A stretch of 45,617 nt of DNA from the IMG/VR virus record IMGVR_UViG_3300032163_000029, positions 1 through 45,617 of that record; one strand, given 5' to 3'. This document shows, one piece after another, positions 2,114-28,002 of this stretch; the first letter of the stretch is position 1, and every line of letters starts with the position of its first letter. Under the pieces are notes generated by a model. That model did no database searches. It was not told the origin of the DNA and saw only the letters and a list, made by a program, of their open reading frames with translations. A program made the translations under genes and the position numbers. The DNA comes from a virus.

Positions 2114-2135
2114 ATTGACAGGAACAAAAGCGCAC

Positions 2136-3020: not shown

Positions 3021-3038
3021 ACCAAGGAGTTTATTGTC

Positions 3039-4088
3039 ATGCAAAATTACAATACAGCAGCAGGCCGCATAAACAAGTTGAAAGGAGAAATCTTGGGCCA
3101 TGCGATCCCGGTGGAAGTAATCGGCACCGCCGGCGCCATGAACAAGGAAATGCCGAAGAACGTCGGTGATACCGTTGTCTATCGTCGCTGGCTCCCGTAT
3201 GGCGGCACGGACAACAAGTGGATCGTTCCGACCACGGGTGACGCTGCAGCCGCTTTCGCTGCCGCCCATCTGACCACGGAAGGCGTCACGCCGAACGCCG
3301 ATACCCTGGCGCCGGTGGACGTGACCGTGACGCTGAATGAGTACAGCGTTCTGTACAGCCTGTCGAACCGCACCGTGGATCTGCACGAAGATGATATCCC
3401 GGCGGAGATGAAGAAGCAGACGGGCCAGCGTGTCGGTCTGGTGCGCGAGATGGTGCGTTATGGCGCGCTCAAGGCTTGCACCAACAAGTTCTATGCGGGC
3501 GGTGGCTCAACCCGGGCCTCGGTGAATACCAAGATTACCCTGGGCTTGCTCCGCAAAGTCGCTCGCGCCTTGCAGTCGTCCCATGCGGAACGCATCACGT
3601 CGATCCTGTCGGCCTCGCCGAACTTCGCGACGACCCCGGTGGAAGCCGGGTACACCGTGTACGGCCATACCGACATCGCTCCCGACGTGCGCGACCTGCC
3701 GGGCTTCAAGCATGTGTCCGAGTACGGGCAGCGCAAGCCGCTGAACGAGTACGAGATCGGTTCCTGCGAGGAGTTCCGCTTCATGCTCTCGCCGGAGCTG
3801 GCCCCGATCCTCGACGGCGGTGTAGCGGTGGGTGCGACTGGCATGGTGGCCAACGCCACCAACGTGGACGTGTATCCGATCATCATGATGGCGGATAACG
3901 CTTACGGCCAGGTGGCTCTCCGCGGCATGAACGCGGTGAACCCGACGTACATCCCGCCTGGGCAGAAGGACAAGAACGACCCCCTCGGTCAGCGTGGTTA
4001 TATCGGCGCCCTCACCTACTTCAACGCCACTGTCCTGAACAACGGATGGATGGCGGTTGCCGAAGTGGGCACGAGCGTACTGGTCTAA
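3039..4088 (+). CDS. Major capsid protein, N4-gp56 family
   Basis: 349 residues. Recognisable family features in order are an N-terminal segment with MPKNVGDTVVYRRWLPYGGT, a P-domain-like region with YSLSNRTVDLHEDDIP, an internal HTDIAPDVRDLPGFKHVSEY block, and the C-terminal DKNDPLGQRGYIGALTYF block followed by VLNNGWMAVAEVG. These match N4-gp56-type major capsid proteins (HK97 fold), which assemble the icosahedral shell. The start is fixed by AAGGAG at 3024-3029, ten bases before the ATG. It follows the scaffold gene by 18 bp and precedes two small probable head proteins, as in other podovirus head modules. Family assignment is confident. Confidence 0.9.
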   Translation: MQNYNTAAGRINKLKGEILGHAIPVEVIGTAGAMNKEMPKNVGDTVVYRRWLPYGGTDNKWIVPTTGDAAAAFAAAHLTTEGVTPNADTLAPVDVTVTLNEYSVLYSLSNRTVDLHEDDIPAEMKKQTGQRVGLVREMVRYGALKACTNKFYAGGGSTRASVNTKITLGLLRKVARALQSSHAERITSILSASPNFATTPVEAGYTVYGHTDIAPDVRDLPGFKHVSEYGQRKPLNEYEIGSCEEFRFMLSPELAPILDGGVAVGATGMVANATNVDVYPIIMMADNAYGQVALRGMNAVNPTYIPPGQKDKNDPLGQRGYIGALTYFNATVLNNGWMAVAEVGTSVLV

Positions 4089-4163
4089 CCCGTAACGTCT
4101 GAGTAAACCGGGACTGGTGGCTGGCGCCTGCCGGCCATCCTCCCATAACTGGAGAAATTCAAG

Positions 4164-4673
4164 ATGGATACACTCTCGCGTTACTTGTCAAACCTGCCCG
4201 ATGGTCGTTCTGCCAAGGTGCTGCGTCCGCTTCTGGAAGGAATTTGCGACCGACTTTCGTCGCAGCTTCTCACCAGCGGCGCACTGGTCATTAAGGCGGG
4301 CGCCTCTGCCCTCGTGAAAGCCGGTTCTATCCTGTATGCCACGGCGAACGGGCAGATCGTCACCAAGGCGGCGAACACCGACATGGCCGCCCTGGCTGGA
4401 ACCGTGACTGCTGCCAAGTTCAACGTCTTTGCCTTCTTCATCGACGCAGCGGGAACGCTGACGACTTCGATGGGGACGGAAGGCGCGAGCTTGGCGGCGG
4501 TCAAGTTCCCGGCGATCCCGGCACGGAAAGCGATGGTCGGCTTCGTTATCATCAACCCGACGGGCACCGGCAACTTTGTCGGCGGCACGACGGCGCTGGA
4601 TGATGCGACGGTTGTTCCGGGCGCGCTTTACGTCAACACGGTGGGGGCGTTCGACCCGTCGGCTCTGGTCTAA
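4164..4673 (+). CDS. Putative capsid decoration / minor head protein
   Basis: 169 residues, small-residue rich (Ala, Gly, Thr, Val), predicted largely beta, with no transmembrane or signal segment. A good ribosome site (GGAG, 4151-4154) lies nine bases before the ATG. It sits between the major capsid gene and another small structural-looking gene, the usual place for decoration or head-completion proteins. The central part (LVKAGSILYATANGQIVTKA) resembles the beta-rich body of decoration-like proteins in general character only; I do not recognise a named family. The role is inferred from location and composition. Confidence 0.5.
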   Translation: MDTLSRYLSNLPDGRSAKVLRPLLEGICDRLSSQLLTSGALVIKAGASALVKAGSILYATANGQIVTKAANTDMAALAGTVTAAKFNVFAFFIDAAGTLTTSMGTEGASLAAVKFPAIPARKAMVGFVIINPTGTGNFVGGTTALDDATVVPGALYVNTVGAFDPSALV

Positions 4674-4711
4674 CCGGCCAAAACGATTCAATTTACCAAG
4701 GAGAAAATTAA

Positions 4712-5083
4712 ATGGCTGACAATATCGCAGGACAGACGCTTTCTGGTAACTCACCGTCCATCGACGCTCCGCAGGTCGCCTATGGCAGAGATGTTTTTGA
4801 CGCAACCGCTATTACCGCTGCGGATTCGGTCTTGGTCACTACAGGTTTCAAGCCGAGGTATGTGGCTTGGGAAAATGTAACGGATCGCATCAAAGTCGAA
4901 TGGTATGAGGGTATGGCAGATAATTCCTGTATCAAGACGGCTGCCAATGGAACCCGAACGCTAGAAGTTACTGGTGGAAATGGCGGAATTACCGTAACTG
5001 GTCGCGGATTCAGAGTCCTTCAGAACGCGACATTGGCGGCAATTCTGGCTTCCAAGGTATGCAATTGGGTTGCTAACGGTTAA
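4712..5083 (+). CDS. Small head-module protein, unknown function
   Basis: 123 residues preceded by AAGGAG at 4698-4703. It is beta-rich with Thr, Ala, Gly and Asn; the middle (VAWENVTDRIKVEWYEGM) and the C-terminal GGITVTGRGFRVLQNATL look like strands of a compact fold. No catalytic motif, signal or membrane segment is visible. It lies 38 bp after the putative decoration gene, and a strong terminator follows its stop, so it probably closes the capsid transcription unit. I recall similar proteins beside capsid genes in podoviruses, without known function. A minor head or decoration protein is the most likely role. Confidence 0.5.
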   Translation: MADNIAGQTLSGNSPSIDAPQVAYGRDVFDATAITAADSVLVTTGFKPRYVAWENVTDRIKVEWYEGMADNSCIKTAANGTRTLEVTGGNGGITVTGRGFRVLQNATLAAILASKVCNWVANG

Positions 5084-5106
5084 TCAAAGTCAGTAAAACC
5101 GCAACG

Positions 5107-5137
5107 AAAGGCCGCCATTTCTGGCGGCCTTTTCTTT
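5107..5137 (+). terminator. Strong rho-independent terminator after the capsid genes
   Basis: AAAGGCCGCCA (5107-5117) pairs perfectly with TGGCGGCCTTT (5122-5132) around a 4-nt loop, followed by TCTTTT. It would end or attenuate capsid transcripts and lower expression of the connector genes downstream. Confidence 0.9.
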
Positions 5138-5164
5138 TGAACACCGAAACAGGAGAACGCAACA

Positions 5165-5647
5165 ATGGCACGCAGGAAGGTAAAGACACTCGAAACAGGC
5201 GACCACAAGATTGGGCAAGACAAGTCAGTGGTTATTCCCGCGACCGGAAAGGTCAAGGACATCAAGCGCACGGATCAGATAATCGACGTGATCGAAGGCC
5301 CGGACATCAAGGCTCGAATCGAGCTGGAAGCCTTCATGAACGAAATCGTGGAGGTCACGGTAGCTGAATCCAACGACCAGAACGCCGATAACCCGGTGCT
5401 GGTTGCTTGCAACGGCGTACCGCAGTATTTCATTCGCGGGCGGCAACAGCCGGTCAAGCGCAAGTTCGTCGAGATCCTGGCGCGAGCAAAACAGACATCC
5501 GTGAGAACGGTTGAGTTTACGGATGCCACGGGAGCACGCGCGATTCGCATCGACAAGTCAACCGCGCTGCGCTACCCGTTCATGATAAATAACGATCCAA
5601 ACCCCAACGGCATGCCCTGGCTGCGGAAGATTCTCGCCGAAGCCTAG
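5165..5647 (+). CDS. Conserved phage structural-module protein, unknown function
   Basis: 160 residues, starting after AGGAG at 5151-5155; TTG at 5137 in another frame is a shadow. The N-terminus is basic, and a conserved-looking centre, VACNGVPQYFIRGRQQPVKR, leads into a mixed helix-strand C-terminus. No signal, membrane or enzyme motif is seen. It is the first gene after the capsid-unit terminator and precedes the adaptor gene by about 30 bp, so a role in head completion or head-tail joining is plausible. I recall relatives in phages with N4-gp56-type capsids but no assigned function. That it is a gene is well supported; the function is open. Confidence 0.55.
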   Translation: MARRKVKTLETGDHKIGQDKSVVIPATGKVKDIKRTDQIIDVIEGPDIKARIELEAFMNEIVEVTVAESNDQNADNPVLVACNGVPQYFIRGRQQPVKRKFVEILARAKQTSVRTVEFTDATGARAIRIDKSTALRYPFMINNDPNPNGMPWLRKILAEA

Positions 5648-5677
5648 CTCGGGATCCACGGCGCATAGAGGATACTC

Positions 5678-6388
5678 ATGAACTTCCTGCAACTCTGTCA
5701 AATGGCCTGTCAAGAGATGGGTATAGCCGGGACTGGCCCTACTGCTACGACCGGCCAGACTGGCGAGTTGAAGCGCGTGGTCGATTGGGTTGCGCGTGCT
5801 TACCGTGAAATCTGCGGTAAGCACGCAAACTGGAAGTTCCTGAGATCGTCGTTTTCGGTCAATACCATCATCGGCCAGGAAGCCTACTTACCGACTGCCT
5901 GTACCGATTCCGTACTGGCTCAATTAATCGGCCATGCCACGGTAGGAAAGTTCGGCAAGTGGATGCCGGATACCTTTCGCATCTACAAGCTCTCGGAAGG
6001 CGCCGGCACGCGGCAGTATATCTGGCCGGTCGATTACGAGTGGTTCCGGGATCGATATCAGTTGATTGTCCCCAGCAACAACAGACCGTTCCAGTGGAGC
6101 GTGCGCCCAAGAGATTACGCGCTTCTCATGGGGCCGAAACCCAACGACGTGTACGTTGTCGAGGGAGATTATTACCGGGTGGCTCCGGTGCTGGCGGCTG
6201 ATGCTGACGAGCCAATCTTCCAAGAGCAGTACCACATGTCGATCGTGTGGCGCGCGGTGCGCTACTACGCCTTGTACGAGGAAGATGGTGGCCTCTATGC
6301 CGGCGCCAATCAAGAGTACAAGTCGGAATACGGCCTGCTGATGACAGATCAGTTGCCGGCCATGGAGCTGGGCGCCCCGCTGGCATGA
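5678..6388 (+). CDS. Head-tail adaptor (connector) protein
   Basis: 236 residues. The start MNFLQLCQMACQEMGIAG, followed by TGPTATTGQTGELKRVVDWV and the aromatic NWKFLRSSFSV segment, is the typical opening of adaptor proteins that form a ring below the portal in short-tailed phages (SU10/T7 gp11-like). The C-terminal half holds helices with MSIVWRAVRYYALYEEDGG, also typical. The ribosome site GAGG (5668-5671) lies six bases before the ATG. Its TGA overlaps the next gene's ATG (6385-6388), coupling adaptor and nozzle-like protein synthesis. Family recognition is fairly confident; the exact ring position is inferred. Confidence 0.75.
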   Translation: MNFLQLCQMACQEMGIAGTGPTATTGQTGELKRVVDWVARAYREICGKHANWKFLRSSFSVNTIIGQEAYLPTACTDSVLAQLIGHATVGKFGKWMPDTFRIYKLSEGAGTRQYIWPVDYEWFRDRYQLIVPSNNRPFQWSVRPRDYALLMGPKPNDVYVVEGDYYRVAPVLAADADEPIFQEQYHMSIVWRAVRYYALYEEDGGLYAGANQEYKSEYGLLMTDQLPAMELGAPLA

Positions 6389-13242: not shown

Positions 13243-16200
13243 ATGGCACTTCCTTGGAACGAGGTCGCCAATAACCCTGATTTTCAAAATCTACCGAGCG
13301 ACCAGCAGGAGTCCGCGCGCCTTCAATACTTCAGTGATGTTGTAGCTCCGCATGTTCCGCATACCGAACTTGACACAGTTCGCAAACAGTTCGATTCGGA
13401 AACTAAACCACGTTCCGCGCTGGGCGAAATCGGAACGGCATTAAAACGCGGAACCATCGGTCAACTTCCACAAATGGCGGGCCAGGCTGGAGAGTTTATT
13501 GCCGGAGAGTTTGGGGCCGGCCCCGGAAATGTCGCCTACGATATTTCAAAGAAGGTCGCTGATTACGGAACCGAACAATTAAATCGTCCGGATATGCAGT
13601 TGCATCCGGAATCGCATAATGCCGTAACAAACTTCTTTGCTTCTGGCGCCGAGATGATCCCGCAGTCCGTAGCCCCCATGGCAGCCATCGCCGGAGCAAT
13701 CGCATTGGCGCCCGTAGAATTGCCGGCGCTCGCCACGACCGCGCTTGCTTCGCTCGGCGGTGGTGTTTTGTTTGGCGCTTCGCAGGGACAGCAGACGTTG
13801 GAAAAGGCGCAGAAGGCCGGAGTAGCACCGGATCAGGCGCGCGAAGCTTCGCGGATAACATTCGCCGAAGAAAGTCTTGGAGAGACGGTCGGCAACCTTA
13901 TCTTGGGATGGGGCTTTGGCGCGCTCGAAAAAGCCGGCACTCAGGCCGCCATTAAGACCGCCGGACTCACCAAAGCGCAGGTGGTGTTCAACGCCTTCAA
14001 GAATCCTTCGTGGTTCCAGGACTTCGCCAAGAAGCTTCCGGGTGAGTTCGCTGGTGAGATCGGCACGGAAATGGCGCAGAACTACTCCGAAGCTGCGACC
14101 GAGAAAGCCTACGGCATCGACAATCAAGACCCGTGGGAAGCGGCGAAGCAGGCCATCAGTCCGACCGCGGCCATGACTACGATCCTGCTGCCGCTTGGCG
14201 CGATGGGTCACTACAAGGCCGCGCAGCAAAGCCGTGCCATCACGTCCACACTTGAGAGCCCGAACGCCGACCCGAAGCTGCGGACGATTGCCGCGAACAC
14301 CGTCTACCAATCCCTCAAGACCGCCGATCCCGCCGCCGCCGAGGCTTGGGGTAATAACGCCCAGGAAGCCATCAAGGCAAATCGCCCAATCCTGCTGGAT
14401 GAATCCTTCGCTGTCCCCCAAACCGATGCCGAGATAGGAGCCTCTATCGTATCGGCTGACAATGTAGATTCCGCCATTGACGCCGCCGTTCGGGCTACGT
14501 CAGGCGCCACGACACCCATTGCCGGGGTTGTCACGGTTCCGCCTTCCGCCCCCGTGACAGGAATCATCAATCAAGCCAGATCGTCGCGTAGCGGGGCTGA
14601 GATGCTGCCTGTCACGCCGGCTGACGTCGGCACCGTTCAGGGCACTCCGCTGCTGGGGAAAGGCGTCTCGGGCGCCGAACCTGTCCCGTTCTCCCGCGAG
14701 GAAGTGCGGGCCATGAACTTGGGAAAAACCCTTACCCATCAGTACGAGACGCCTCCCTCAGAGCTTAATCAGCCCGTTCCCCCATCATCTACTAATACTG
14801 TCCAGCCGGAAGCCGCCCCAGCCGCGCCCAAGCGCGTCCAGACACTTAAAGACGCCGTTGTGCGCCAGGGTGGCATCAATCCTGAGTACCGCATGGACAT
14901 CCTTGGCGACACCAAGGGGAACTACAACATTCCCGGCGTAGGACATCTGTTCACGAAAACCGGCGACTCGCTCGACGGCATGGCCGAGAAGTTGACCGAG
15001 GAAGGATGGTTTACCGAGGAACAGCGCAATAGCGGTGACGCGACGCGCCTCCTGTCCACAATGATTCGTGACGAATTGACCGGGATCAAGGAACACATCA
15101 ACCCCGGCAACGTCACAGCCTTCGACGCCAAGATGAAGGCCGAGATGGAGCATTACTACGGCGATCAGGGAAGGCAGGAAGATCCGTTCGTCAACGCCCC
15201 CCCTGCGGACTTGGAAGTGTCCGGGTACAATATGGCCGACGAGCCGACCAAAGACCTGACCGCGCTTTATGCTGTCGGTCGTCGCAAGATGGGCAGCGAT
15301 GCCTTTGACGACATGCTGGAACGCCTGGCCTCGCAGAACGAGAACATCGACGACAACGCCTTCGAGGCGCTGGTACGAAAGGAGGTGGATAACCATGGCA
15401 AAGATCAAGGCAAAGCTGCCGCCGCGAGCGCAAGCCGCGGCGGACATCTCCCGACGACTGGTGAAGTGGTCGGATCGGCGCAACAAGGAAAAGAAGGCGC
15501 AGCCGCCCCTCCAAGCGCCGAAGTAACCGCCCCGACACTCAAAGCGCCCCCGCAAGGGGGCGTTTCAGTTCCTGCCTCCGAAAAACTCACCCCCGTCTCA
15601 AAGCGCAAGCCCGCCGACTACGGCAGCACAAACAAGATTGTCTCGACCGAGCGCGCGAACGAACTGCGCGAGAAACTTCGGAAGAAACTTAATCAGGTCA
15701 GCGCCGGCATTGACCCTGAGTTATTTGCCATGGCCAGTGAACTGTCCGTGTATCACATCGAGGCTGGCGCGCGCAGCTTCGCCGCGTACTCGAAGGCCAT
15801 GCTTTCCGACTTGGGCGACAAGATCAAACCGTACCTCAAGGCGCTGTACCTGGGTGCGCGAAACTGGCCGGGCATCGACAAGGCTGGTATGGATACAGAA
15901 GCCCAGCTCGAGACGGCGGAGAAAACAGCGCCAGGGCAGACCGCTGACATGCTTGGTGGAAAGAACTCCAGCCAGCAGGCCATTCATGATGCTGAAATAG
16001 AGCGCCAGAAGAAGATGGCCGAAGCGCCGCCCGTAGAGGCCGGCGAAGGTGATCTGTTCAGCGGCAAGGCCAAGCAGACCGATATCGAGGATGTGACGAA
16101 AGCGAAACCGATAGACGAAAGGCTGGTCCCGAAGTCGGCAATTTCTACGCCCGCGCTGGACAAGATTAAGGCGCAGGGAAACCACGAGGAGCAGAAGTTC

Positions 16201-19200
16201 AAGGTCGGCGAGCGTGTTGTTATCAATAACAATCACAACGAGGAAATGACCGGGCGCCATGGAGTTGTCACCGAAGCCAAGCGTATCGGCTGGACGACAA
16301 CGGTTCTATTCGGTTCCGGCCCGACGGAAAGCAGCAGCAGCTACACCTATCACGTCAAGACGGATGCTGGCGTTGAAACAGACATGCGCGCTACCGATCT
16401 TGAGGTCGAGACGGGCATAGCTCCAAAAGTCAGTGACGACGTGAAGATGCCGGAAGGACTTTACACGCCTCGCCATGCGCTTCAACTGATCGAACACAGC
16501 AAGGGATATATCCGTAACGCCGAAGCCGCTGCTGAGCGCGCGCGCAATGCCGACAAGATCGAGGGCCACAAGAAAGCCGCCGAGCGTTACCGCAAGGAAC
16601 TGGATGCGCGCACCCGGGCCTTCGAAGCTTGGGCGGCGCTGAACCCCGAAGAAGCAGCCAAGGTGCGCGGCGAACTGAGTACCGCCAAGGCGGATGAAAA
16701 CTGGTGGAACCATGAGCTGACGCCAGTCGGGCGCGAGAACGCTGCGAATGAAGCTGGCATCAAGATCCAGACGAACACGACGCGCTGGAATTACATCGGC
16801 ATGTCCGAGCGCGAGAAGCTATCCGCCGTGCGCGCCTCCGGGAAGAACTTGGACTCGGGATCCGCGACGGAAACCGCCGTCCCGGTGGTGGCCGGCGATG
16901 CCGCCGCCACGCTCAAGGCCGCGGGCCTTACGGTTCGCAAGACAAAAACCAACAAGGGAAGTGACGTGTGGGAAGTCTCCGGCGATACCCGCGCGCACAA
17001 GGATACTATCAAGTCCATGGGCGGGCGCTGGTACGGCCCGAAGAAGGTTTGGAGCTTCTACAAGGGCGATCCGTCTGAACGGCTGGCAGAACGCCTCCCC
17101 AAGCCGAAAACGGTGGCTGCAGCCGCCATTACGGAAACCCCAGCTACCCCAATTCCTCCGCCGCGCGACAAGGAAAAGACGCCTTTCGAGGAAGGTCAGG
17201 CCGCATTCTCTGCCGGCAAGACGCGTATCGCCCCCATGGCGATGTCCAGCGAGGAAATGACAGAATGGTATCGCGGCTGGGATAAGGCTAATCTGGCTGC
17301 CCCGGTTCCTGGCGAGATTGACGAGCAGGCCAATGAGGGTAGAATTGTAAGTGAGGAAACGACCAATGCCCCTGCTCAACAACCAAATCTTGAAGCCGGA
17401 AACCGAGGCGGCAATATCGAAGCTCGGCCCGCTGGCCGAACAGATCGCCGACCGTTGGGTGTCGGGGTGGAAGAAGGAAACCTTGGCGCTGGAACGGAGC
17501 GGGGAACTGCTGGCGAGAATCAAGAGCCAGGCGGAACGGGAAGCACAAACGCGGGCGGACGCGAGGGTGGGCGGGCAGAACAGCCACCTGGCGCATCACG
17601 AACTGATGGAGCTGTACGGGATCAGTCCGAACGAAGGCCCGTAACAGGTCGTCAAGACTTCACCATCACCGACGCCGACGAGATCGGCGTCGGTGGCACC
17701 AAAACCAAATACCAGAATAACGTCGCGGCCATCCGTCTGCTCAAGCAGATCACGGAGCAAGACCGCCTTGCCACGCCCGAAGAACAAGCCATCCTCGCCA
17801 AGTACGTCGGCTGGGGCGGGATCAAGGGCGCGTTCGACCCGAACAACAAGGGGTGGACGAAAGAATACACCGAGCTTAAAGACCTACTCACGCAGGAAGA
17901 ATACGAGGCCGCACGGCGCTCGATTCTAGACGCGCACTACACCAGCGTACCGATCGTGCGCGGGATCTGGTCGGGACTGCGGCGTATGGGCTTCGACGGT
18001 GGCAGGGTGCTGGAACCATCCGTAGGTGTGGGTAATTTCTTCGGGCTCATGCCGAAGGGACTGCGTTCCGCGTCAACCCTGCTCGGCGTCGAGCTTGACC
18101 GCATCACCGGCGCCATCGCGCACCATCTCTACCAGACCGCTGACATCTCAAGCCCGATGGGCTTTCAGGCCATCAACCTTCCGAGCGGATCGTTCGATGC
18201 CGTTGTCGGCAACCCCCCGTTCGGCAGCCAAAAGTTATTCGACGCCAACCACAAAGAACTGAGCAAGTTTTCCATCCATAACTTCTTCATCGCCAAGGCG
18301 CTCGACAAGCTGCGCCCCGGCGGCGTCATGGGGATCGTGGTGTCGCGTTACTTCCTGGACGCGCAGGACAGCACCGCGCGCCAGTACATCGCCGAACGCG
18401 CCAACATCTTGGGCGCGGTGCGCTTGCCATATACGGCGTTCAAGGGCAACGCGAATACCGAGGTCGTGACCGATGTGATCTTCCTGCAAAAGCTGGAAGA
18501 AGGGGAATCCCCCGATTTGTCGTGGGTGGATACCGCCGACATCGACGTGGAAGGCACTCCGGCTCGAGTTAATCAGTATTACTCGGACAACCCGGACAAC
18601 GTGCTGGGAACCTTCGCGCGTACCGGCTCCATGTACGGAAAGGATGAACTGACCGTAGAACCGTCGGAAGTATCTATTGAGGACGGTATCGCGCGTTTTG
18701 TTCAGACGCTTCCGGAGAATATCTACGCCAAATCCGGCATGACCGAAGCGCAGGTCAACGACGCGATTGAGGGGGCCGTGCCGGAACACACCAAGGTCGG
18801 TGGATACTTTGTCGCCGAGGACGGAAAGCTGGCCCGGCGTGCCTCCGACTCCAATCGTACCGACGATAGCGGCCAGCCGGTTCGCCGTTATGAGGTTGCT
18901 CCCGAAATGCCGAAGGCCACGGAGCGCCGCGTTCGTGATCTGATTGGCGTGCGCGATGCGCTGCGCTCGCTGATGCGGGCGGAAATGACACAGGTAGAGG
19001 ACAGTGCCGACCTGTCCCATTTACGCGACGTGCTGAACCGGCGCTATAACGCTTTCATGCAAACGCACGGCTATATCAATGCCCAGGCTAATCGCCGCGC
19101 CTTCGCCGAAGATCCCGACCTTCCGTTGCTTGAATCGCTCGAACCGGAATACGATCCGGGGGTATCGCGCGACGCCGCGAAACGGAAAGGGACTGATTAC

Positions 19201-22200
19201 CGTCCGGCCAAGGCCGAGAAGGCGGCGATCTTTAGGCGCCGTGTTCTCGCGCCTTACACGCATGTAACCAACGTCGATAATCCGCAGGATTCCTTGGCCG
19301 CCTCGCTCAATGAGCGCGGAAAGGTGGACTTGGCGTACATGGAAGAAATCACCGGAACCGATCAAGAGACGCTTATCCGTGAACTGTCGGGCCTGATCTA
19401 CCGTAACCCGGAAACCGATCTGCATGAGATCGCTGACGAATACTTGACCGGCAACGTCAAGGCGAAGCTGGCGACGGCCAAGGAAGCGGTTAAGACGGAT
19501 AAACGCTTCGAGGAGAACGTCGTGGCGCTTGAGAAGGTGCAGCCCGCCGACGTGACCGCCTCTGATATATCCGTGAAGCTGGGCGCGACGTGGGTGCCGT
19601 CGGACATCGTGCGCGACTTCGTTATGGAACTGCTCGGTGTTGAGCCGAGTGTGGCCTATATACCATCCGCGGGTAAGTGGAGTTTCAACGTCAAAAGTCA
19701 ATCCGGGACTGCTGTGTCGGGCACCGCCTTTACGGCTACTTGGGGCACGCGGCGCATGCCAGCCGACGATATCATTGAAGCCATCCTCAACATGCGAGCC
19801 ATCGTGGTGAAGGACAACCACGGCACTTCCCGCGAACCGAATTGGGTAACGAACGCACCGGAGACGCAGGCCGCCCGCGCCAAATCGGAGGACGTGCATA
19901 TCAAGTTCAAGGATTGGATCTGGCTTGACCCGAAGCGCCGTGAGCGCCTTGAGTCGATCTGGAACAACACCATGAACACCAACCGTCGTCGCACTTACGA
20001 CGGCTCGCACATGCAGTTTCCCGGCATGAGTCCATTAGTGAAGATGCGGAAACACCAAACGTCTGCCGTCTGGCGCACGCTGCAAGATCGCCAGGTGTTG
20101 CTCGATCACACGGTAGGCGCCGGTAAGACTTACGTTATGGTGGCCGCGGCGATGGAAATGCGGCGCTTGGGACTGGCCCGCAAGCCAATCTTTACCGTGC
20201 CGAACCATCTGGTGCGCCAGTGGCGCGACGAGTTCTACCACCTGTATCCCTCGGCCAACATCCTCGCCGCCACGGAAAAGGACTTCGAGAAAGCCAATCG
20301 CCAGCGCCTATTCTCCCGTATCGCTACCGGCGATTGGGACGCGGTTATCGTCGCTCATTCGTCGTTCACGAAGATCGGGATGCCCGCGCAGCAGGAAACA
20401 GAAATCCTGAATGAAATGCTCCGGGAGCTGACCGACGCCGTGCGCCAGATGAAGGATGATCGTGGCGACCGGAATGTTATCCGCGATATGGAGCGCATCA
20501 AGGAAAATCTGGAAGCGAAATTAGCAAAAGCCAACGCCAAGGCTGGCGCCCGCGATAGGGTAGTGACGTTCGACGAGCTGGGCGCCGATGCCCTGTCGGT
20601 GGACGAGGCGCACATTTTCAAAAACCTGTTCTTTATCTCCTCCATGAAGGGGGTAGCCGGTTTAGGCAATCCGGCCGGCTCGGGCCGCGCCTTCGATCTG
20701 TTCGTCAAAACCCGATACCTACAGACCCGTTTCGGCGGCAAGGGCACCACGATCTTCGCCACCGGCACTCCAATCAGCAATTCGCTGGTCGAGATGTACA
20801 CGATGCAGCGGTATCTCATGTACGACGACCTGAAATCCCGCGACATGCACCTGCTTGATGCCTGGGCGCGCGCTTTCGGTGACGTGCAGCAAGTGTACGA
20901 AGTCCACCCGTCCGGCAATGGCTATCGTCTGGCAACCCGGTTTGCCAAGTTTGTCAACATGCCGGAGCTGATGACGCTGTACCGCAAGGTGGCCGACGTT
21001 GTGACTCTTGACGATTTGAAGGCCCAGGCCAAGGCCGAAGGCAAGGTATTCCCGGTTCCCAAGATGAAGGGGGGGAAGCCGCAGCTTATCGTCGCGGAAC
21101 GCTCGCCGGATCAGACCAAGTTCTTCGGTGTCCCGACCTTTGCCCGCGACCTGAATAACAAGATCAAGTTCAACCACGACAACCTGACGGTGGAGTTGAA
21201 TAGCGAGACGGAGAAATACCACGTCTTAGGCGAGCATGCTCAAAGCATTTCCGGCCCGTTCGACACCAAGGCCGAGGCGGATCACTCACGTCGTCAGCTC
21301 ATGAATGAACCCGTTATTAACTATAACGAAGGTTCGATTCTGTGGAAATTCGAGAACCTGCGGAGACTCACCAAGGACAGCAATGGCAAGATCAATGCTC
21401 TGTCGATCACCAATGAAGCCCGCAAGGCGGGGTTAGACTTCCGCCTGATTGACGCCAATGCCGCCGACTTCTCCGGCTCGAAGATCAATCAGGCGATAGA
21501 TAAGATCGTTGGGGTGCATGCGAAGTGGAAGGCCGACAAAGGGGCGCAGCTCGTATTCTGCGATCTGTCCGTGCCGAAATCCGCCAAGGCCACGGCGCAA
21601 TCGCAAGAACGGAAGGTTTGGGTGCGGGACAAGGACAACGCCGGCGCGCTCAAGGAAGTGAAGGCGGTAATGCACATTGTTGACGGTATCGAGGGCGCCG
21701 TATTCCTGATCCACAAGAACAACAAAAAGACCGATAAACGCGTCTACGTTTACGACGCCATAACGCGCGGCTTCACCGGGATCATGGCGGACAATGTTTC
21801 CGACGCCAGAACCAAGTTAAACGCGATTACGGAAGAAAAACTCATTGAGTCTCGCGTTGATTCCAGCCCGCTGACAGAAGAAGAAATACAGGACTGGAAG
21901 GACGCCAACGAAATCGTTGACGATAGTTCCGACAGCGACACCACCGACGCCGAGGATGACAGCGTAGACCTCGCCAGCTTGTTCGCCTTGTCGTCGAGAT
22001 CGACATTCTCCGTCTACGACGACGTAAAGGCCAAGTTGATCGCCAAGGGAATACCGGAAAGAGAGATCGCCTTTATCCACGACTACCATACGGCCAACCA
22101 GAAGAACAAACTTTTCCAAGCGGTGCGTGACGGCACGATTCGCGTGCTACTCGGTTCAACACAGAAGATGGGCGCCGGCATGAACGCGCAGGATCGTCTG

Positions 22201-25200
22201 GTGGCCGTGCATCATTTGGATGCACCGTGGCGCCCGTCGGATCTCGAACAGCGCAACGGTCGCATCATCCGCCAGGGCAACAAGCTCTATGAGCGCGATC
22301 CAGACGGATTTGAAATAGAGGAGTTCCGCTACGCCACGAAGCAAACCTACGACACGCGCATGTGGCAGATCATCGAGCATAAGGCCCGAGGCGTGGAGCA
22401 ACTGCGCCATGCTGACGAAACTTCGCGCACGATTGACGACATCTCCGGGGAGGCCGCCAGCGCCGCCGACATGAAGGCCGCCGCCTCTGGAAACCCGTTG
22501 ATTCTGGACGAAATAAAGCTCCGCAACGAGATCAGCAGCCTGGAGGCGCAGGAACAGAATTACATGCGTACCACGTTCGACCTGCAGCGGCGCATCCAGC
22601 AGCTCGAAAAGTCAGACGAACGCTACGCCGGACGTATTGAAGGTATCAACGCCTGGACATCCGTGCGCGACAAAAATCCCATCGACCCGTTCAAGGTTGA
22701 GATTGGTGGTAAGACGTTTACCGAGCGCAAGGAAATCGGCGGCCCCATGGTCACGAAGATTGGTGACGCCTACGCCAGCGCCTCGCAGGCTGTCGTCCCG
22801 GCCGGAACGTATAGAGGCGTCCAGTTCGGGTTCCAGCGCGGAACTGACAAGGGAATCTTGTACGGAAAGCTATCGCTCAACGGGAAGGACTGGCAGACGA
22901 ACGCCGTTTACGACGCCGATAAAAACAAGTTCAGCCCGTCCGGGTTCCTGATCCGCATCGACAACGAACTGACCGGACTGGACGGCGACAAGGCGCAGGC
23001 TCAGCGCGACCTGGCGCGCGAGAAGGAAGAACTTGCGAAGGCCCAAGTAGAAGTTAAAAAGCCGTTCTCGAGGAAGGACACACTGGCCGAGGCCCGGGTT
23101 AAGCACCGCGAGGTCGTCACGCGTCTGCAAGCCTCCGGCGGCGCCATTGAAATGACGCCAGCCATGAAGGAAGAACTGGCGCTCGCCAAAGAAGCGCGCG
23201 GCACTCATACCGCCGACTTCTCCATGGACGTAACGCCGGGGCCGACGTTCTACTCCGCCCTGACTACCAGCGTGGAGGCGCTCAGAACTAATACAGCGCC
23301 CCCTGGAATGTGGAAATCCGCCATCAATAATATGTGGAAGAAAGGCGTTAAGAAGGAAGAAATCGAATGGTCGGGCGTCAACGATTGGCTGGACGGCCAG
23401 ACCGGAAAGGTCACGAAACAGCAGATCGTTGACTTCCTGCGCGCCAATGAAATTAAAGTTACCGATGTCATGCGAGCCACCAAGGGCGGCACCGAAGCCG
23501 TTGCCGAAATCCGCGAACTGCTTGGCACTATCGAGATGCAGGGGTACAACGCCCAATGGGAGGCGAATGTCGTCACGGACGAGTACGACATTCTTACCGG
23601 CTTCGAGTATCCAGCGGAACGGCAGGAGGAAGATGCGAGATTCGCTAAGGTATATTCGGCAGAAGATAATTTCAAAGGGATGCCCGAAGCCCTGCGCCTG
23701 AAAGCCATCCGGGTCAAGGAGCTTTCCGAGATCGCCAGCGCCGCAGCGGAAACCACATTTGAGAACTACACGCTTCCCGGAGGAAAAAACTACCACGAGT
23801 TGCTGCTGACGTTGCCGCAGTCTGTTATTGCGCCGAGAGAAGGCGAGTCTATTACCGAGGCAATGGATCGTGGGCACACAGAAGGTAATCCGATGATTAC
23901 CAGTGAATTCAGATCCAATCACTTCGACGAGTCCAACATCGTCGCCCACATCCGCTTCAACGACCGTACCGACACCGATGGCAAGCGCGTGCTGTTCATC
24001 GAGGAAGTGCAGAGCGATTGGCACCAGAAGGGAAGGAAGGAAGGCTATTTGCCTGCTGGATGGAAAGAGACAGGACATGCAGTTCCTGACGCCCCCTTCA
24101 AGACCACATGGCCCATGCTCGCCATGCGCCGCATGATCCGCTACGCCGCCGATAATGGCTACGACCGCATCGCGTGGACAACCGGAGAGCAGCAGGCGGA
24201 TCGGTATGATCTGAGTAAACAAATTAGCCAAGTAACAGCTAAAAAAATATCAGACGGTAATTATCGTATTTCAGCACGTAACAACATCATGCGCGATGGT
24301 AGGGGGGCGGAAATACTCAATAATGTTTATGGGGAGCGTGATATACCGGATGTCGTAGGTAAGGACCTTGCGGAACGTATTATTAAAGAAACCACAGAAT
24401 CACCGGATAGAACAATGGTGTATAACGGACTCGACCTCAAAGTCGGCGGCGAAGGCATGAAAGGCTTCTACGACCAAATGCTCCCGAACGAGGTCAATAA
24501 GTACGTCAAGAAGTGGGGCGGGAAGGTTGGTGAAACTAACATCATTCAAGGCGAACAACCGTTAGACAAAAATCTACGAATTGAGCCAACACCTGTTCAT
24601 TCCATCGACATCACGCCAGCGATGCGCGATAGTGCCATGCAAGGCCAGCCGATGTTCGAGCAAACTGGCGCCACGGAGACGAAAGCCAAGTCCTATGTCA
24701 AAGAGAAAGAAACGCCCGCCATCAAAACGCTGCGTGAAGCCGTCCAGCGCGCGACCGGGAAAACGCTCGAAGAAGGCTCCTTTACCGATGCCGGATTGCC
24801 TGAGTCCTTTCGTGGAGTAGCCGAGGCGGTCAAGAAGATTTTTGGGAAGGATGTCGTCTTTTTCCGCAATAACATCCCCGACACGATCAAGTTCGGTGGC
24901 CTGGCTACCGGAGCGGATACCAAGAACATCTACGTTAACGTCGAGCATAAGCAGCCGTTCGTGTATGTCACCGGCCATGAGCTGCTACACCTGCTGCGGA
25001 AAGAACGCCCGGACATTTACTATCGCCTGTACCAGATCGCCAAGCAGGAGTTCGATCAGGAGGCCGTGCAGGAATTTGGTACGTTGCTGACGAAGTTTGC
25101 CGCCCGTAACAAACTGCTGAGAGCGCCGGAGCTGGATAAGGTACACGAAGAAATGCTTGCCAATTTCGTGGGCGACCAGTTCGCGCGCCCGGATTTCTGG

Positions 25201-28002
25201 TCGAAGCTGGCAAAAACCGAACCTGAAACATTCCTCGATCTGGCCCGGATGGTGTACGACTACCTGCGTCGCCTGCTCACGATGGCAAAAGGCCGCTTGG
25301 GCGTTGGCAGCTACAGGTCGTCCGAGTATTTCCGCGACGTGGAGCGTATGCGCGATGCCGCCGGCCAGGCGCTCAGCGACTACGCCGAGAATCACCGCAT
25401 CATGGAATATGGGTTTACGGCGGCCCAGCAAGACACCGGCACCATGTTCGCCATGACCACCGCAGATCGCGAGCGCGTGATTGGCGACTCGGGCCGGCAG
25501 TACACCCCGGAACAGCGCGATGCCATGCGCCGTACCGGCTCGATTGTCACGAAAAAAACCATTCAAGAATCCGCCCAGGCTATCCACAAGGACGCTTGGA
25601 AGCGCCTCGCGCAAGGGCTCGTTGACCAGTTTGCGCCGGTCAAAGACATCAGCAGTAGGGCTTACACCTTGCTCCGCTTATCCAAGGGAGCCACCGGCGC
25701 CTTCGAGGCGCTGATGAAGCATGGCAAGCTGTCGTTGCGCGATGGCGCCTACGATGCTGACATTAGTGGCGGTGTGCTGGATCGCGTGTTCATTCCGCTG
25801 GGCCGGGAAAGCACGGACTTCCTGCGCTGGATCGCCGGCAACCGTGCCGAGCAGCTTGCTGCAGAAGATCGGGAACACCTGTTTTCCCCGGAGGATATCG
25901 CCGCCTTCAAGTCGTTGGATCAGGGCACGACGGCCTTTGACTACACCCTTGAAAACGGCACTGTCACCCGCGACCGCACGCTGATCTATCGGGACAGCCA
26001 CAAAAAGTTCAACGAGTTCAACAAGAACGTGTTGGACATGGCCGAGCAATCTGGACTGATTGACGGAGAAAGCCGGAGCCTGTGGGAGCGCGAGTTCTAC
26101 GTTCCCTTCTACCGAGTCGAGGAGGAGAAGGACGGCGGCGTGCGTGGCATGAATATCAAATCCGGGGTTATCCGTCAGGAGGCGTTCAAGAAGCTCAAGG
26201 GCGGAGAACAGGCATTGAATGATCTGATGTCGAATACCCTGATGAATTGGGCGCACCTGATTGACGCTGCTGCCAAGAACCGCGCTGCCGAAGCCACCAT
26301 CGAGGCGGCGGCGCTGGCCGGGGTAGCTCGTGAAGCCACCTGGGGCGAGAAGGATACCGTCTGGTACATGAAAGACGGCAAGAAGGCCGTCTACAAGGTC
26401 AGTGATCCATACATTCTGACGGCTATTTCTGCGCTGGAATACGCCGGCCTGCGTGGGCCCGCCATGGATGCGCTGTCGTCGTTCAAGCACTGGTTGACCA
26501 TTGGCGTCACCGCTTCGCCGTTCTTCAAGATACGCAACCTGATTCGTGACTCAATGCAGGCGGTTGCCACGGCGGATCTGAGCTACAACGTGCTGGGCAA
26601 CGTGAGCAAGGGATACAAGCTGACGCACCGCGAGCGGCAGGAGTACGTCTCGGCCATGGCCGGCGGTGGCCTGATCCGCTTCGGCACCATGCTGGAAAGC
26701 AACGAGGCCGCCCGTACCCGCCAGCTCATTAAGCAGGGGGCCAAGGACGAGCACATCCTGGACAATGAATCGAAGGTTCGTGCGTTCTACGACAAGTATC
26801 TCGAACCGGCTGTTTCCGCCTACAACGAGCTGGGGAACCGCGGCGAAGAAATAAACCGCATGGCGCTCTATGACCGGATGATCCGCAAAGGCGTAGGCCA
26901 TGCCGAAGCCTCCTTGGCGGCCCGCGACCTGCTCGACTTCTCGATGCGTGGTTCTTGGACTGGCATACGCTTCTTGACGCAGGTTGTCCCGTTCATGAAC
27001 GCTCGCGCGCAGGGCTTGTATAAACTCGGTCGTTCGGCCAAGGAAGATCCAGCTCGGTTCGCCACTGTACTCGGCGCCACCGCTCTGTTCTCCGTCGCCC
27101 TGATGGCTGGATATGCCGATGACGACGATTGGAAGAAGCGTGAGGATTGGGATCGGGACAATTACTGGTGGTTCAAGCTCGGCGGCGTTGCCTTCCGTAT
27201 CCCGAAGCCGTTTGAAATAGGCGCGATTGCCACCCTGGCGGAGCGCGGGGCGGAACTCATGACCAGCGACGAAATGACCGGCAGGCGCTTTATGAATCGT
27301 CTTGGCGCGGTGTTGTCCGATAACTTGAGCATGAACCCCATCCCCCAGCTCGCCAAACCGCTGATCGACATCTACGCCAACGTGGACAGCTTCACCGGGC
27401 GCCCGATTGAGTCAATGGGCATGGAAAGGCTGGCGCCTGACTACCGCTTCCGTCAAAGCACCAGCATGCCGGCGCGTGCCGCCAGCACCGCGGGAAACGC
27501 CCTGACCGGCGGGCACTTCCTGTCCCCGGTTCAGGTTGACCATCTGGTGCGCGGCTACTTCTCATGGCTGGGTTCGTTTGTGGTCGGAAGCGCCGATATG
27601 TTGGCGAGATCCGCCAGTTCAGAACCATCCCGTCCGGCGTCCGATTACTGGAAAGTCGCTACCGGAGGGCTGGTATCTGAAACCGAGGGCGCCCCCAGCC
27701 GCTATGTCACGCAGATGTACGATCAGGCGAAGATCATCGAAGAAGCCTACGGCACATGGAAGGAAATGATTAAGGAAGGGAAGTCTGTCGAGGCCAAGGA
27801 CTACTTCACGGAAAACCGTGATGTTATCGGCAAGTACCGTGTTATCGAGAGGGTCAAGCGGGAGCAGACGAAACTAAACCAGATGCGCCGGCGCATTGAA
27901 AACAGCGACATTTCGCCTGACGAGAAGCGGGATAGGATCAACAAGATTCGGGAGAATCAGGACAAGTTAGCCCGGCAAGTGAGCCAAGCAGCAAGGTTCT
28001 GA
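13243..28002 (+). CDS. Giant polyvalent (DarB-like) protein: N6-adenine methylase, SF2/SNF2 helicase, zincin protease and LPD-type modules
   Basis: 4919 residues, about a third of the window. Visible parts: hydrophobic, Ala-rich membrane-active N-terminus (about 137-183); small helical modules (533-640, 805-880); SH3-like barrel (986-1060); a WEVSGDTRAHKD..GGRWYGPKK module (1242-1290); an RMF-like G-x2-AF-x2-GK..W-x2-GW motif (1316-1360); N6-adenine methylase (1472-1760) with LEPSVGVGNF at 1590-1599 and NPPF at 1657-1660; helicase (2265-3060) with HTVGAGKT at 2289, DEAH at 2454 and QRNGRIIRQG at 3003; coiled coils (3080-3330); polyvalent modules with IEEVQSDWH near 3587; a zincin with HELLH at 3912-3916 and likely third ligand Glu3969/3970; and a C-terminal module like LPD38 as I recall it (about 4390-4690). 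Related proteins (P1 DarB, Bcep22 giant) are virion-borne and shield entering DNA. Co-ejection here is inferred. Linkers at 712-800 and 1363-1471 overlap other-frame ORFs. Confidence 0.9.
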   Translation: MALPWNEVANNPDFQNLPSDQQESARLQYFSDVVAPHVPHTELDTVRKQFDSETKPRSALGEIGTALKRGTIGQLPQMAGQAGEFIAGEFGAGPGNVAYDISKKVADYGTEQLNRPDMQLHPESHNAVTNFFASGAEMIPQSVAPMAAIAGAIALAPVELPALATTALASLGGGVLFGASQGQQTLEKAQKAGVAPDQAREASRITFAEESLGETVGNLILGWGFGALEKAGTQAAIKTAGLTKAQVVFNAFKNPSWFQDFAKKLPGEFAGEIGTEMAQNYSEAATEKAYGIDNQDPWEAAKQAISPTAAMTTILLPLGAMGHYKAAQQSRAITSTLESPNADPKLRTIAANTVYQSLKTADPAAAEAWGNNAQEAIKANRPILLDESFAVPQTDAEIGASIVSADNVDSAIDAAVRATSGATTPIAGVVTVPPSAPVTGIINQARSSRSGAEMLPVTPADVGTVQGTPLLGKGVSGAEPVPFSREEVRAMNLGKTLTHQYETPPSELNQPVPPSSTNTVQPEAAPAAPKRVQTLKDAVVRQGGINPEYRMDILGDTKGNYNIPGVGHLFTKTGDSLDGMAEKLTEEGWFTEEQRNSGDATRLLSTMIRDELTGIKEHINPGNVTAFDAKMKAEMEHYYGDQGRQEDPFVNAPPADLEVSGYNMADEPTKDLTALYAVGRRKMGSDAFDDMLERLASQNENIDDNAFEALVRKEVDNHGKDQGKAAAASASRGGHLPTTGEVVGSAQQGKEGAAAPPSAEVTAPTLKAPPQGGVSVPASEKLTPVSKRKPADYGSTNKIVSTERANELREKLRKKLNQVSAGIDPELFAMASELSVYHIEAGARSFAAYSKAMLSDLGDKIKPYLKALYLGARNWPGIDKAGMDTEAQLETAEKTAPGQTADMLGGKNSSQQAIHDAEIERQKKMAEAPPVEAGEGDLFSGKAKQTDIEDVTKAKPIDERLVPKSAISTPALDKIKAQGNHEEQKFKVGERVVINNNHNEEMTGRHGVVTEAKRIGWTTTVLFGSGPTESSSSYTYHVKTDAGVETDMRATDLEVETGIAPKVSDDVKMPEGLYTPRHALQLIEHSKGYIRNAEAAAERARNADKIEGHKKAAERYRKELDARTRAFEAWAALNPEEAAKVRGELSTAKADENWWNHELTPVGRENAANEAGIKIQTNTTRWNYIGMSEREKLSAVRASGKNLDSGSATETAVPVVAGDAAATLKAAGLTVRKTKTNKGSDVWEVSGDTRAHKDTIKSMGGRWYGPKKVWSFYKGDPSERLAERLPKPKTVAAAAITETPATPIPPPRDKEKTPFEEGQAAFSAGKTRIAPMAMSSEEMTEWYRGWDKANLAAPVPGEIDEQANEGRIVSEETTNAPAQQPNLEAGNRGGNIEARPAGRTDRRPLGVGVEEGNLGAGTERGTAGENQEPGGTGSTNAGGREGGRAEQPPGASRTDGAVRDQSERRPVTGRQDFTITDADEIGVGGTKTKYQNNVAAIRLLKQITEQDRLATPEEQAILAKYVGWGGIKGAFDPNNKGWTKEYTELKDLLTQEEYEAARRSILDAHYTSVPIVRGIWSGLRRMGFDGGRVLEPSVGVGNFFGLMPKGLRSASTLLGVELDRITGAIAHHLYQTADISSPMGFQAINLPSGSFDAVVGNPPFGSQKLFDANHKELSKFSIHNFFIAKALDKLRPGGVMGIVVSRYFLDAQDSTARQYIAERANILGAVRLPYTAFKGNANTEVVTDVIFLQKLEEGESPDLSWVDTADIDVEGTPARVNQYYSDNPDNVLGTFARTGSMYGKDELTVEPSEVSIEDGIARFVQTLPENIYAKSGMTEAQVNDAIEGAVPEHTKVGGYFVAEDGKLARRASDSNRTDDSGQPVRRYEVAPEMPKATERRVRDLIGVRDALRSLMRAEMTQVEDSADLSHLRDVLNRRYNAFMQTHGYINAQANRRAFAEDPDLPLLESLEPEYDPGVSRDAAKRKGTDYRPAKAEKAAIFRRRVLAPYTHVTNVDNPQDSLAASLNERGKVDLAYMEEITGTDQETLIRELSGLIYRNPETDLHEIADEYLTGNVKAKLATAKEAVKTDKRFEENVVALEKVQPADVTASDISVKLGATWVPSDIVRDFVMELLGVEPSVAYIPSAGKWSFNVKSQSGTAVSGTAFTATWGTRRMPADDIIEAILNMRAIVVKDNHGTSREPNWVTNAPETQAARAKSEDVHIKFKDWIWLDPKRRERLESIWNNTMNTNRRRTYDGSHMQFPGMSPLVKMRKHQTSAVWRTLQDRQVLLDHTVGAGKTYVMVAAAMEMRRLGLARKPIFTVPNHLVRQWRDEFYHLYPSANILAATEKDFEKANRQRLFSRIATGDWDAVIVAHSSFTKIGMPAQQETEILNEMLRELTDAVRQMKDDRGDRNVIRDMERIKENLEAKLAKANAKAGARDRVVTFDELGADALSVDEAHIFKNLFFISSMKGVAGLGNPAGSGRAFDLFVKTRYLQTRFGGKGTTIFATGTPISNSLVEMYTMQRYLMYDDLKSRDMHLLDAWARAFGDVQQVYEVHPSGNGYRLATRFAKFVNMPELMTLYRKVADVVTLDDLKAQAKAEGKVFPVPKMKGGKPQLIVAERSPDQTKFFGVPTFARDLNNKIKFNHDNLTVELNSETEKYHVLGEHAQSISGPFDTKAEADHSRRQLMNEPVINYNEGSILWKFENLRRLTKDSNGKINALSITNEARKAGLDFRLIDANAADFSGSKINQAIDKIVGVHAKWKADKGAQLVFCDLSVPKSAKATAQSQERKVWVRDKDNAGALKEVKAVMHIVDGIEGAVFLIHKNNKKTDKRVYVYDAITRGFTGIMADNVSDARTKLNAITEEKLIESRVDSSPLTEEEIQDWKDANEIVDDSSDSDTTDAEDDSVDLASLFALSSRSTFSVYDDVKAKLIAKGIPEREIAFIHDYHTANQKNKLFQAVRDGTIRVLLGSTQKMGAGMNAQDRLVAVHHLDAPWRPSDLEQRNGRIIRQGNKLYERDPDGFEIEEFRYATKQTYDTRMWQIIEHKARGVEQLRHADETSRTIDDISGEAASAADMKAAASGNPLILDEIKLRNEISSLEAQEQNYMRTTFDLQRRIQQLEKSDERYAGRIEGINAWTSVRDKNPIDPFKVEIGGKTFTERKEIGGPMVTKIGDAYASASQAVVPAGTYRGVQFGFQRGTDKGILYGKLSLNGKDWQTNAVYDADKNKFSPSGFLIRIDNELTGLDGDKAQAQRDLAREKEELAKAQVEVKKPFSRKDTLAEARVKHREVVTRLQASGGAIEMTPAMKEELALAKEARGTHTADFSMDVTPGPTFYSALTTSVEALRTNTAPPGMWKSAINNMWKKGVKKEEIEWSGVNDWLDGQTGKVTKQQIVDFLRANEIKVTDVMRATKGGTEAVAEIRELLGTIEMQGYNAQWEANVVTDEYDILTGFEYPAERQEEDARFAKVYSAEDNFKGMPEALRLKAIRVKELSEIASAAAETTFENYTLPGGKNYHELLLTLPQSVIAPREGESITEAMDRGHTEGNPMITSEFRSNHFDESNIVAHIRFNDRTDTDGKRVLFIEEVQSDWHQKGRKEGYLPAGWKETGHAVPDAPFKTTWPMLAMRRMIRYAADNGYDRIAWTTGEQQADRYDLSKQISQVTAKKISDGNYRISARNNIMRDGRGAEILNNVYGERDIPDVVGKDLAERIIKETTESPDRTMVYNGLDLKVGGEGMKGFYDQMLPNEVNKYVKKWGGKVGETNIIQGEQPLDKNLRIEPTPVHSIDITPAMRDSAMQGQPMFEQTGATETKAKSYVKEKETPAIKTLREAVQRATGKTLEEGSFTDAGLPESFRGVAEAVKKIFGKDVVFFRNNIPDTIKFGGLATGADTKNIYVNVEHKQPFVYVTGHELLHLLRKERPDIYYRLYQIAKQEFDQEAVQEFGTLLTKFAARNKLLRAPELDKVHEEMLANFVGDQFARPDFWSKLAKTEPETFLDLARMVYDYLRRLLTMAKGRLGVGSYRSSEYFRDVERMRDAAGQALSDYAENHRIMEYGFTAAQQDTGTMFAMTTADRERVIGDSGRQYTPEQRDAMRRTGSIVTKKTIQESAQAIHKDAWKRLAQGLVDQFAPVKDISSRAYTLLRLSKGATGAFEALMKHGKLSLRDGAYDADISGGVLDRVFIPLGRESTDFLRWIAGNRAEQLAAEDREHLFSPEDIAAFKSLDQGTTAFDYTLENGTVTRDRTLIYRDSHKKFNEFNKNVLDMAEQSGLIDGESRSLWEREFYVPFYRVEEEKDGGVRGMNIKSGVIRQEAFKKLKGGEQALNDLMSNTLMNWAHLIDAAAKNRAAEATIEAAALAGVAREATWGEKDTVWYMKDGKKAVYKVSDPYILTAISALEYAGLRGPAMDALSSFKHWLTIGVTASPFFKIRNLIRDSMQAVATADLSYNVLGNVSKGYKLTHRERQEYVSAMAGGGLIRFGTMLESNEAARTRQLIKQGAKDEHILDNESKVRAFYDKYLEPAVSAYNELGNRGEEINRMALYDRMIRKGVGHAEASLAARDLLDFSMRGSWTGIRFLTQVVPFMNARAQGLYKLGRSAKEDPARFATVLGATALFSVALMAGYADDDDWKKREDWDRDNYWWFKLGGVAFRIPKPFEIGAIATLAERGAELMTSDEMTGRRFMNRLGAVLSDNLSMNPIPQLAKPLIDIYANVDSFTGRPIESMGMERLAPDYRFRQSTSMPARAASTAGNALTGGHFLSPVQVDHLVRGYFSWLGSFVVGSADMLARSASSEPSRPASDYWKVATGGLVSETEGAPSRYVTQMYDQAKIIEEAYGTWKEMIKEGKSVEAKDYFTENRDVIGKYRVIERVKREQTKLNQMRRRIENSDISPDEKRDRINKIRENQDKLARQVSQAARF
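15395..15526 (+). CDS. Nested small basic ORF inside the giant gene (frame +2), possible overlapping gene or gene fossil
   Basis: 43 residues, very basic (MAKIKAKLPPRAQAAADISR then RLVKWSDRRNKEKKAQ), with no known family. An almost ideal Shine-Dalgarno, AAAGGAGGTG at 15378-15387, lies nine bases before the ATG, better than that of most real genes here. A 7-bp GC hairpin with a GCAA loop follows the stop by 18 bp. The giant protein's frame through this stretch is low complexity (Gly, Ala, Pro, Ser), as expected if it overprints an older coding frame. Ribosome site and hairpin are directly seen; whether the peptide is made today is unknown. Conservation of the +2 frame in relatives would decide. 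Confidence 0.4.
   Translation: MAKIKAKLPPRAQAAADISRRLVKWSDRRNKEKKAQPPLQAPK
15545..15562 (+). terminator. Terminator-like hairpin within the giant gene
   Basis: CGCCCCC and GGGGGCG pair perfectly around GCAA, flanked by AAA (with one bulged G) and TTT, then CAG. The U-run is short, so termination would be weak. It sits 18 bp after the stop of the nested ORF at 15395-15526 and resembles the end of an independent gene rather than coding DNA. Confidence 0.45.
17366..17644 (+). CDS. Nested 92-residue ORF inside the giant gene's second linker, probable overlapping gene or overprinted ancestor
   Basis: Frame +2 within the giant gene. ATG at 17366 has GAGG (17353-17356) nine bases upstream; a GTG at 17351 is also possible. 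The product has a normal globular or helical composition: PETEAAISKLGPLAEQIADR, then WVSGWKKETLALERSGELL, and an end of SHLAHHELMELYGISP. It reads like a real small phage protein; I recall similar HLAHHE..YG endings in short phage proteins, without known function. By contrast the giant frame here is Gly/Arg/Glu/Thr low complexity. A perfect 11-bp inverted repeat (17668-17694) begins 23 bp after its stop. Either a translated nested gene or a former separate gene absorbed when the flanking genes fused. Expression unproven. Confidence 0.5.
   Translation: MPLLNNQILKPETEAAISKLGPLAEQIADRWVSGWKKETLALERSGELLARIKSQAEREAQTRADARVGGQNSHLAHHELMELYGISPNEGP
17668..17694. repeat. Perfect 11-bp inverted repeat downstream of the nested ORF
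   Basis: ACCGACGCCGA (17668-17678) and TCGGCGTCGGT (17684-17694) with a 5-nt loop. It lacks a U-run and encodes part of the DADEIGVGG segment that opens the methylase module, so codon choice alone could have made it. A fossil terminator or an RNA structure that pauses ribosomes between modules are alternatives. Confidence 0.4.

Follow-up and report, generated by a model that had tools for sequence, protein, structure and literature searches.

The window, i.e. the whole 45,617-nucleotide stretch of viral DNA that was analysed, which is an IMG/VR virus record, carries on its plus strand a giant polyvalent gene (13243–28002) encoding 4919 amino acids. Pfam matches to N6_Mtase, Eco57I, ResIII and Helicase_C all fall within this one open reading frame, which assigns it to the DarB-like class, and LPD38 is matched as well; the protein is an adenine methylase fused with SNF2-type helicase domains. 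This methylase–helicase pair is common to the window giant and to the DarB-like polyvalent proteins described previously (Iyer et al, 2017; PMC5512222), and both have a conserved GxGG stretch 5′ of the methylase. Here, the GxGG motif, which recalls LPD36 (PMC5512222), lies near the start of a conserved module (17653–18532, plus strand, ending where the Pfam match to N6-methylase ends) that tblastn alignments identify as homologous to the methylase module of relatives. The published description of the class makes no mention of nested or overlapping genes, whereas the window giant contains a conserved small gene in the linker before the GxGG stretch.

Two small open reading frames on the plus strand lie within the giant gene, both open in the frame that begins one base after the giant frame: ORF1 (15395–15526; 43 aa) and ORF2 (17366–17644; 92 aa). 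A first-pass annotation had noted two nested ORFs led by Shine–Dalgarno sites, and both were recovered at these positions in the other frame, with start signals to match. The site of ORF1 (AAAGGAGGTG, 15378–15387, plus strand; site and start together AAAGGAGGTGGATAACC-ATG) has an anti-Shine–Dalgarno duplex energy of −12.9 kcal/mol, matched or beaten by 0.02% of out-of-frame control ATGs (about 1/4956), and that of ORF2 (GAGGAA, 17353–17358, plus strand; GTGAGGAAACGACCA-ATG) reaches −8.3 kcal/mol, matched or beaten by 1.7%. They rank 1 and 3, respectively, among the 46 out-of-frame starts in the giant gene that open at least 40 codons; with 93 out-of-frame ATGs in the giant gene, about 0.02 sites as good as that of ORF1 would be expected. 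Because the nested frames survive 73% (ORF1) and 47% (ORF2) of synonymous shuffles that preserve the giant protein, their openness alone is unsurprising, and the evidence beyond chance for nested genes comes from relatives. A promoter-like site before ORF2 (17318–17345; 10 of 12 positions) was rejected as being at chance level, with 5 such sites found in the scan against 5.8 expected.

Searches with tblastn located a product 41% identical to that of ORF2 inside the giant gene of Pseudomonas phage 8P, where its position and frame correspond to those of ORF2. In Itty13, PEp14 and SopranoGao this place and frame are occupied by a second family (MNLNxW...HWKEH...YLFPPEE), which was found in 21 phage records; what the records annotate over the match is the giant gene, or an upstream giant ORF in the case of PBC5, and none of the phage records inspected annotates the nested gene. 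A search of viral contigs with the ORF2 protein alone gave no matches, whereas an alignment-based search did, and in total the viral contigs provided 26 loci with ORF2's own family and 62 with the second, to which bacterial genomes added 25 further loci of ORF2's family; the second family was searched for on plasmids and not found there. More divergent nested ORFs occur at the equivalent place and frame in BcepIL02, USP_25 and Pseudoalteromonas Y7, and the products of USP_25 and BcepIL02 match the second-family profile, but that of Y7 does not. The nested gene and its linker are both absent from gut-type and streptococcal members of the methylase–helicase family.

Wherever an uninterrupted methylase frame adjoins the small gene (106 loci, mostly phages; 67 non-redundant after clustering), the small gene sits in the identical relative frame (106/106). 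In these loci no stop interrupts the methylase frame across the small gene, behind which the methylase module begins, usually within a few hundred bases and at most about 2 kb away. One further locus, from Azoarcus (L109), differs in that its methylase domain lies in a shifted frame. In Itty13 (L001, 4740–17076) the giant frame is open on this strand; the three large hypothetical proteins that the record gives there lie on the opposite strand and are probably antisense miscalls.

The two nested families are likely to share common descent, short of proof. Profile comparison gave an E-value of 5e-4 but a probability of 31%, pairing W..GWP..V..L...G of the ORF2 family with HWKE..P..Y..L...G of the second. 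AlphaFold, run on alignments that left out rows from annotated records, produced confident, all-helical models of both (pLDDT 82 for ORF2 and 81 for the second family). Their top hit in a viral structure library is one and the same entry, Q8W6J4_2, at E 9e-7 in the case of the second family and at E 0.9 with a probability of 0.66 in that of ORF2. Judged by length and identity, Q8W6J4_2 is probably a PBC5 protein with the domain at its C-terminus. The long PBC5 protein that ends in this domain probably also explains a match of the second family to a PHROG labelled ‘endolysin’, which sits at the end of a 2185-position profile and was rejected as an identification. No relative in the PDB was found by sequence, a designed helical protein (E 5e-4) being the one exception, nor by fold for ORF2. 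Pfam TnpV (PF14198) is matched at E 0.01 or better by 19/44 second-family members (best 5.9e-6), but the likeness is weak and the PEp14 member scores 20.7 bits against a curated cut-off of 27; ORF2 has no match, and no ORF2-family member is among the matches listed.

Start signals were compared between the 67 nested starts, picked by homology and codon type independently of any Shine–Dalgarno site, and 4956 out-of-frame control ATGs. The mean anti-Shine–Dalgarno energy was −7.0 kcal/mol for nested starts versus −2.6 kcal/mol for controls (P about 1e-33), and −5 kcal/mol was reached by 94% of the former versus 17% of the latter.

Selection on the two frames was analysed with an overlap-aware dN/dS, in which single changes are counted by their effect in both frames; the test is a family-level one, none of the relatives available being close to the window's own copy of ORF2. 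This per-frame comparison, suggested in the first-pass annotation, returned 0.117 (0.10–0.13) for the nested frame and 1.18 (0.98–1.42) for the giant frame over the same bases, the purifying selection expected of a functional nested gene, with intervals narrower than they should be, as the pairs are related by descent and every difference enters twice, once in each direction. ORF2's own family alone gave 0.127 and 1.49, and the methylase domain, used as a control, was reversed (giant 0.059, +1 frame 1.26); the reversal between frames is large despite the too-tight intervals. Over the overlap no stop gain was seen in the giant frame where about 345 were expected, while 118 stops arise in the unused +1 frame of the methylase domain, and giant frames are open in 67/67 loci against 4.9/67 predicted by synonymous shuffles of the nested genes. 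The nested product was more conserved than the giant product of the same bases in 992/993 pairs chosen by nested identity, and in 399/419 pairs chosen instead by methylase identity with the giant linker aligned separately. The low nested and high giant dN/dS, together with the lack of giant-frame stops, therefore indicate that the nested protein is strongly selected and that the giant linker is merely kept open. The homology, position, frame and ribosome sites of ORF2 can, like this two-frame selection, be read directly from the sequences.

Homologues standing alone, which the first reading of the locus had proposed looking for, were found in bacterial contigs and plasmids. In about 19 bacterial loci the small gene stands without the methylase–helicase gene, and contigs of Nitrosospira, Gallionellaceae, Sterolibacterium, Sapientia, Methylophilaceae and Lysobacter have no recognizable methylase domain beside it. 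Plasmids of Acidovorax and Cupriavidus have it as an annotated gene directly before an N-6 methylase gene, and the frame of the latter opens about 430–450 nt upstream of the small gene; in Azoarcus (L115) the methylase frame opens just 76 nt before the small-gene match. In the plasmids and Azoarcus the overlap is thus confined to the beginning of the methylase frame. The loci can be arranged as a series, with separate genes at one end, deeply nested ones at the other and those that overlap the start of the methylase frame in between, although this need not be the ancestral order. The separate copies, mostly 25–40% identical to the ORF2 product, could in part be secondary escapes from giants. 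In 19 separate genes the giant-equivalent frame contains 23 stops, whereas the other forward frame has 3–10 per gene, and this difference accounts for the uniformity of the nested frame.

Taken as a whole, the comparison is best explained if ORF2 is a real, translated small gene older than the giant frame around it, which on sequence evidence we consider very probable; we infer both its translation and the order of events. The small gene would have come first, its relatives standing alone in bacteria or overlapping only the first part of the methylase–helicase frame. In the phage lineage, upstream polyvalent modules would then have been joined to the methylase–helicase module by an open frame running through the small gene, that frame being the only forward one, apart from its own, in which such a gene readily avoids stops. 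The Gly/Arg/Pro-rich linker of the giant (17365–17652, plus strand), which by translation is ORF2 read out of frame, would be the out-of-frame product of the small gene, with selection maintaining only its openness, and the small protein would be made by internal initiation at its own Shine–Dalgarno site on the giant mRNA. That the giant overprints older frames had been proposed for both ORFs: for ORF2 an older gene that is still used is strongly supported by homologues, start site and selection, while ORF1 has its ribosome site and no homologue. Fusion of separate genes and continued use of the nested ones had been offered as alternatives, and for ORF2 the homologues, Shine–Dalgarno enrichment and frame-specific selection support both.

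A rival reading takes the nested frame for an untranslated by-product of a low-complexity linker and of high-GC codons. In its favour, the frame is open in 56% of synonymous shuffles that preserve the giant proteins, on average, making openness alone weak evidence. Such a by-product does not account for a nested dN/dS of 0.12 beside a giant value of 1.2, for the ribosome sites or for separate homologues annotated as genes. We give this reading almost no credence overall; for ORF2's family it is already refuted by frame-specific selection, whereas it may still hold for ORF1. It is also very unlikely that the nested sequence is reached by ribosomal frameshifting and forms the alternative C-terminus of a shorter giant, with no free protein. 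Strong ribosome sites before nearly every nested start and the existence of separate short genes both point to internal starts, and the one arrangement that resembles a frameshift product, the PBC5 domain fused in frame to the end of the upstream giant ORF with the methylase frame overlapping, is the sole such case among the loci and may reflect an indel or error in a sequence from 2001. In PBC5 (L013) the second family forms the C-terminus of the upstream giant ORF (1–6309) and is overlapped by the methylase frame (5733 onward); if not an indel or error in this old sequence, the fusion may be a natural alternative way of joining.

A more serious competitor, though still an unlikely one, holds that the nested gene was born de novo within a linker that the giant already had, the separate bacterial copies being later escapes. 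Separate copies have somewhat fewer stops in the giant-like frame than codon permutation predicts (23 seen versus 38 expected), and deep nesting is the rule among known copies that lie beside a methylase gene, as this order of events would have it. Against it, a dN/dS of about 1.2 and low complexity mark the giant linker as the younger frame, the site is occupied by two families with related patterns, and gut-type and streptococcal members of the methylase–helicase family exist without nested gene or linker.

Our leading guess at the role of the ORF2 product, made by analogy, is that of a small helical protein acting as partner of the DarB-like one, either in its loading or in its action, a suggestion we make tentatively and regard as possible rather than probable. 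In phage P1, the virion head contains DarB, which relies on partner proteins, and Ulx assists the localization of DarB in the head (PMC9024508; PMC12810830); a nested partner translated from the giant's own mRNA would fit this need. In the Bcep22-like phage JC1 the giant is carried in the virion and a Ulx homologue is not known in its genus, and the Bcep22 group has no known homologues of P1's accessory Dar proteins (PMC9144972). Ulx is likewise a small protein encoded beside darB (PMC9024508), a likeness that serves as analogy only; at 146 aa it is a separate gene downstream of darB, whereas ORF2 is nested, and reading the two sequences by eye revealed no likeness. The embedded Rz1 gene in Rz, noted for JC1 (PMC9144972), is similarly a functional same-strand gene that is wholly contained in another and read in a different frame; unlike Rz/Rz1, ORF2 lies in the middle of the giant, and it is the outer frame, not the inner one, that is unconstrained as protein over the overlap.

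No earlier report of an ORF2-type nested gene was found in a search of chiefly open-access literature. Because gene callers discard nested frames, about a hundred phage and prophage loci hold a conserved gene family that annotation has overlooked. It provides a clear example of a multi-domain protein whose linker came from wrong-frame reading of an existing gene, with selection measurable on both frames, and its product is a concrete candidate for a partner of DarB-like anti-restriction proteins, for example in phages of the Bcep22 group. In a broader reading, to which we give slightly less than even credence, giants would grow by fusing neighbours through intervening small genes that live on as nested genes, linkers being their out-of-frame translations and several per giant being possible, and the conserved nested protein would be a dedicated DarB-like anti-restriction partner missed in phage annotation.

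Each nested ORF of the window is followed by a hairpin, beginning 15–22 nt past the stop codon. That behind ORF1 (15541–15565, plus strand; −20.4 kcal/mol) is among the best 0.2% of 36-nt windows, and that behind ORF2 (17666–17696, plus strand; −24.5 kcal/mol), lying in codons of the conserved module start, is among the best 0.03% and the strongest in the giant gene. The first-pass annotation was right that strong hairpins lie within 25 bp; as evidence they carry little weight, since no consistent hairpin was found behind the nested gene in 67 relatives (mean percentile 0.37) and neither has a T tract or is listed as terminator-like, and for these reasons we rejected them as relict terminators.

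ORF1 has the best Shine–Dalgarno site in the giant gene but no convincing homologue in phage records or fetched loci, and it therefore stays a candidate; it may be a second, unproven, case of overprinting. The only match to the 192 aa of the giant upstream of it is a weak one, to Pseudomonas phage Rollin, and scanning viral sequences with this region gave no matches. Window positions 14803–15378 show 32% identity to part of a large Rollin protein labelled OppA, a label that looks doubtful.

Nesting may also extend to other polyvalent genes, as at a locus on a MAG contig (L112, 5220–6359) where an ORF2-family gene lies inside a KfrB-domain ORF, upstream of a KfrB-bearing cytosine methylase gene. 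A scan of other giants revealed three more sets of nested ORFs in the +1 frame, with strong sites and greater conservation than the giant frame but few loci each, which makes multiple nesting plausible without demonstrating it. The Erwinia phages PEp14, Pavtok and Stean have a second nested ORF of 76 aa further upstream (L003 5401–5631; L007 3529–3759; L008 from 3748), 64–68% identical among them and preceded by strong Shine–Dalgarno sites in L003 and L007, those that were checked; between PEp14 and Pavtok its dN/dS is 0.58 versus 1.30 for the giant frame. Another set (L016 4849–5016; L088 5524–5694), also with strong sites, encodes a small basic protein (MPKQYEAIRDRL...) that is 49% identical between unrelated giants and weakly like Pfam DUF7218. 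The third, of about 60 aa (L031 4720–4902; L032 4000–4176; L036 about 3931–4032), has strong Shine–Dalgarno sites where checked and is conserved among three or four viral contigs.
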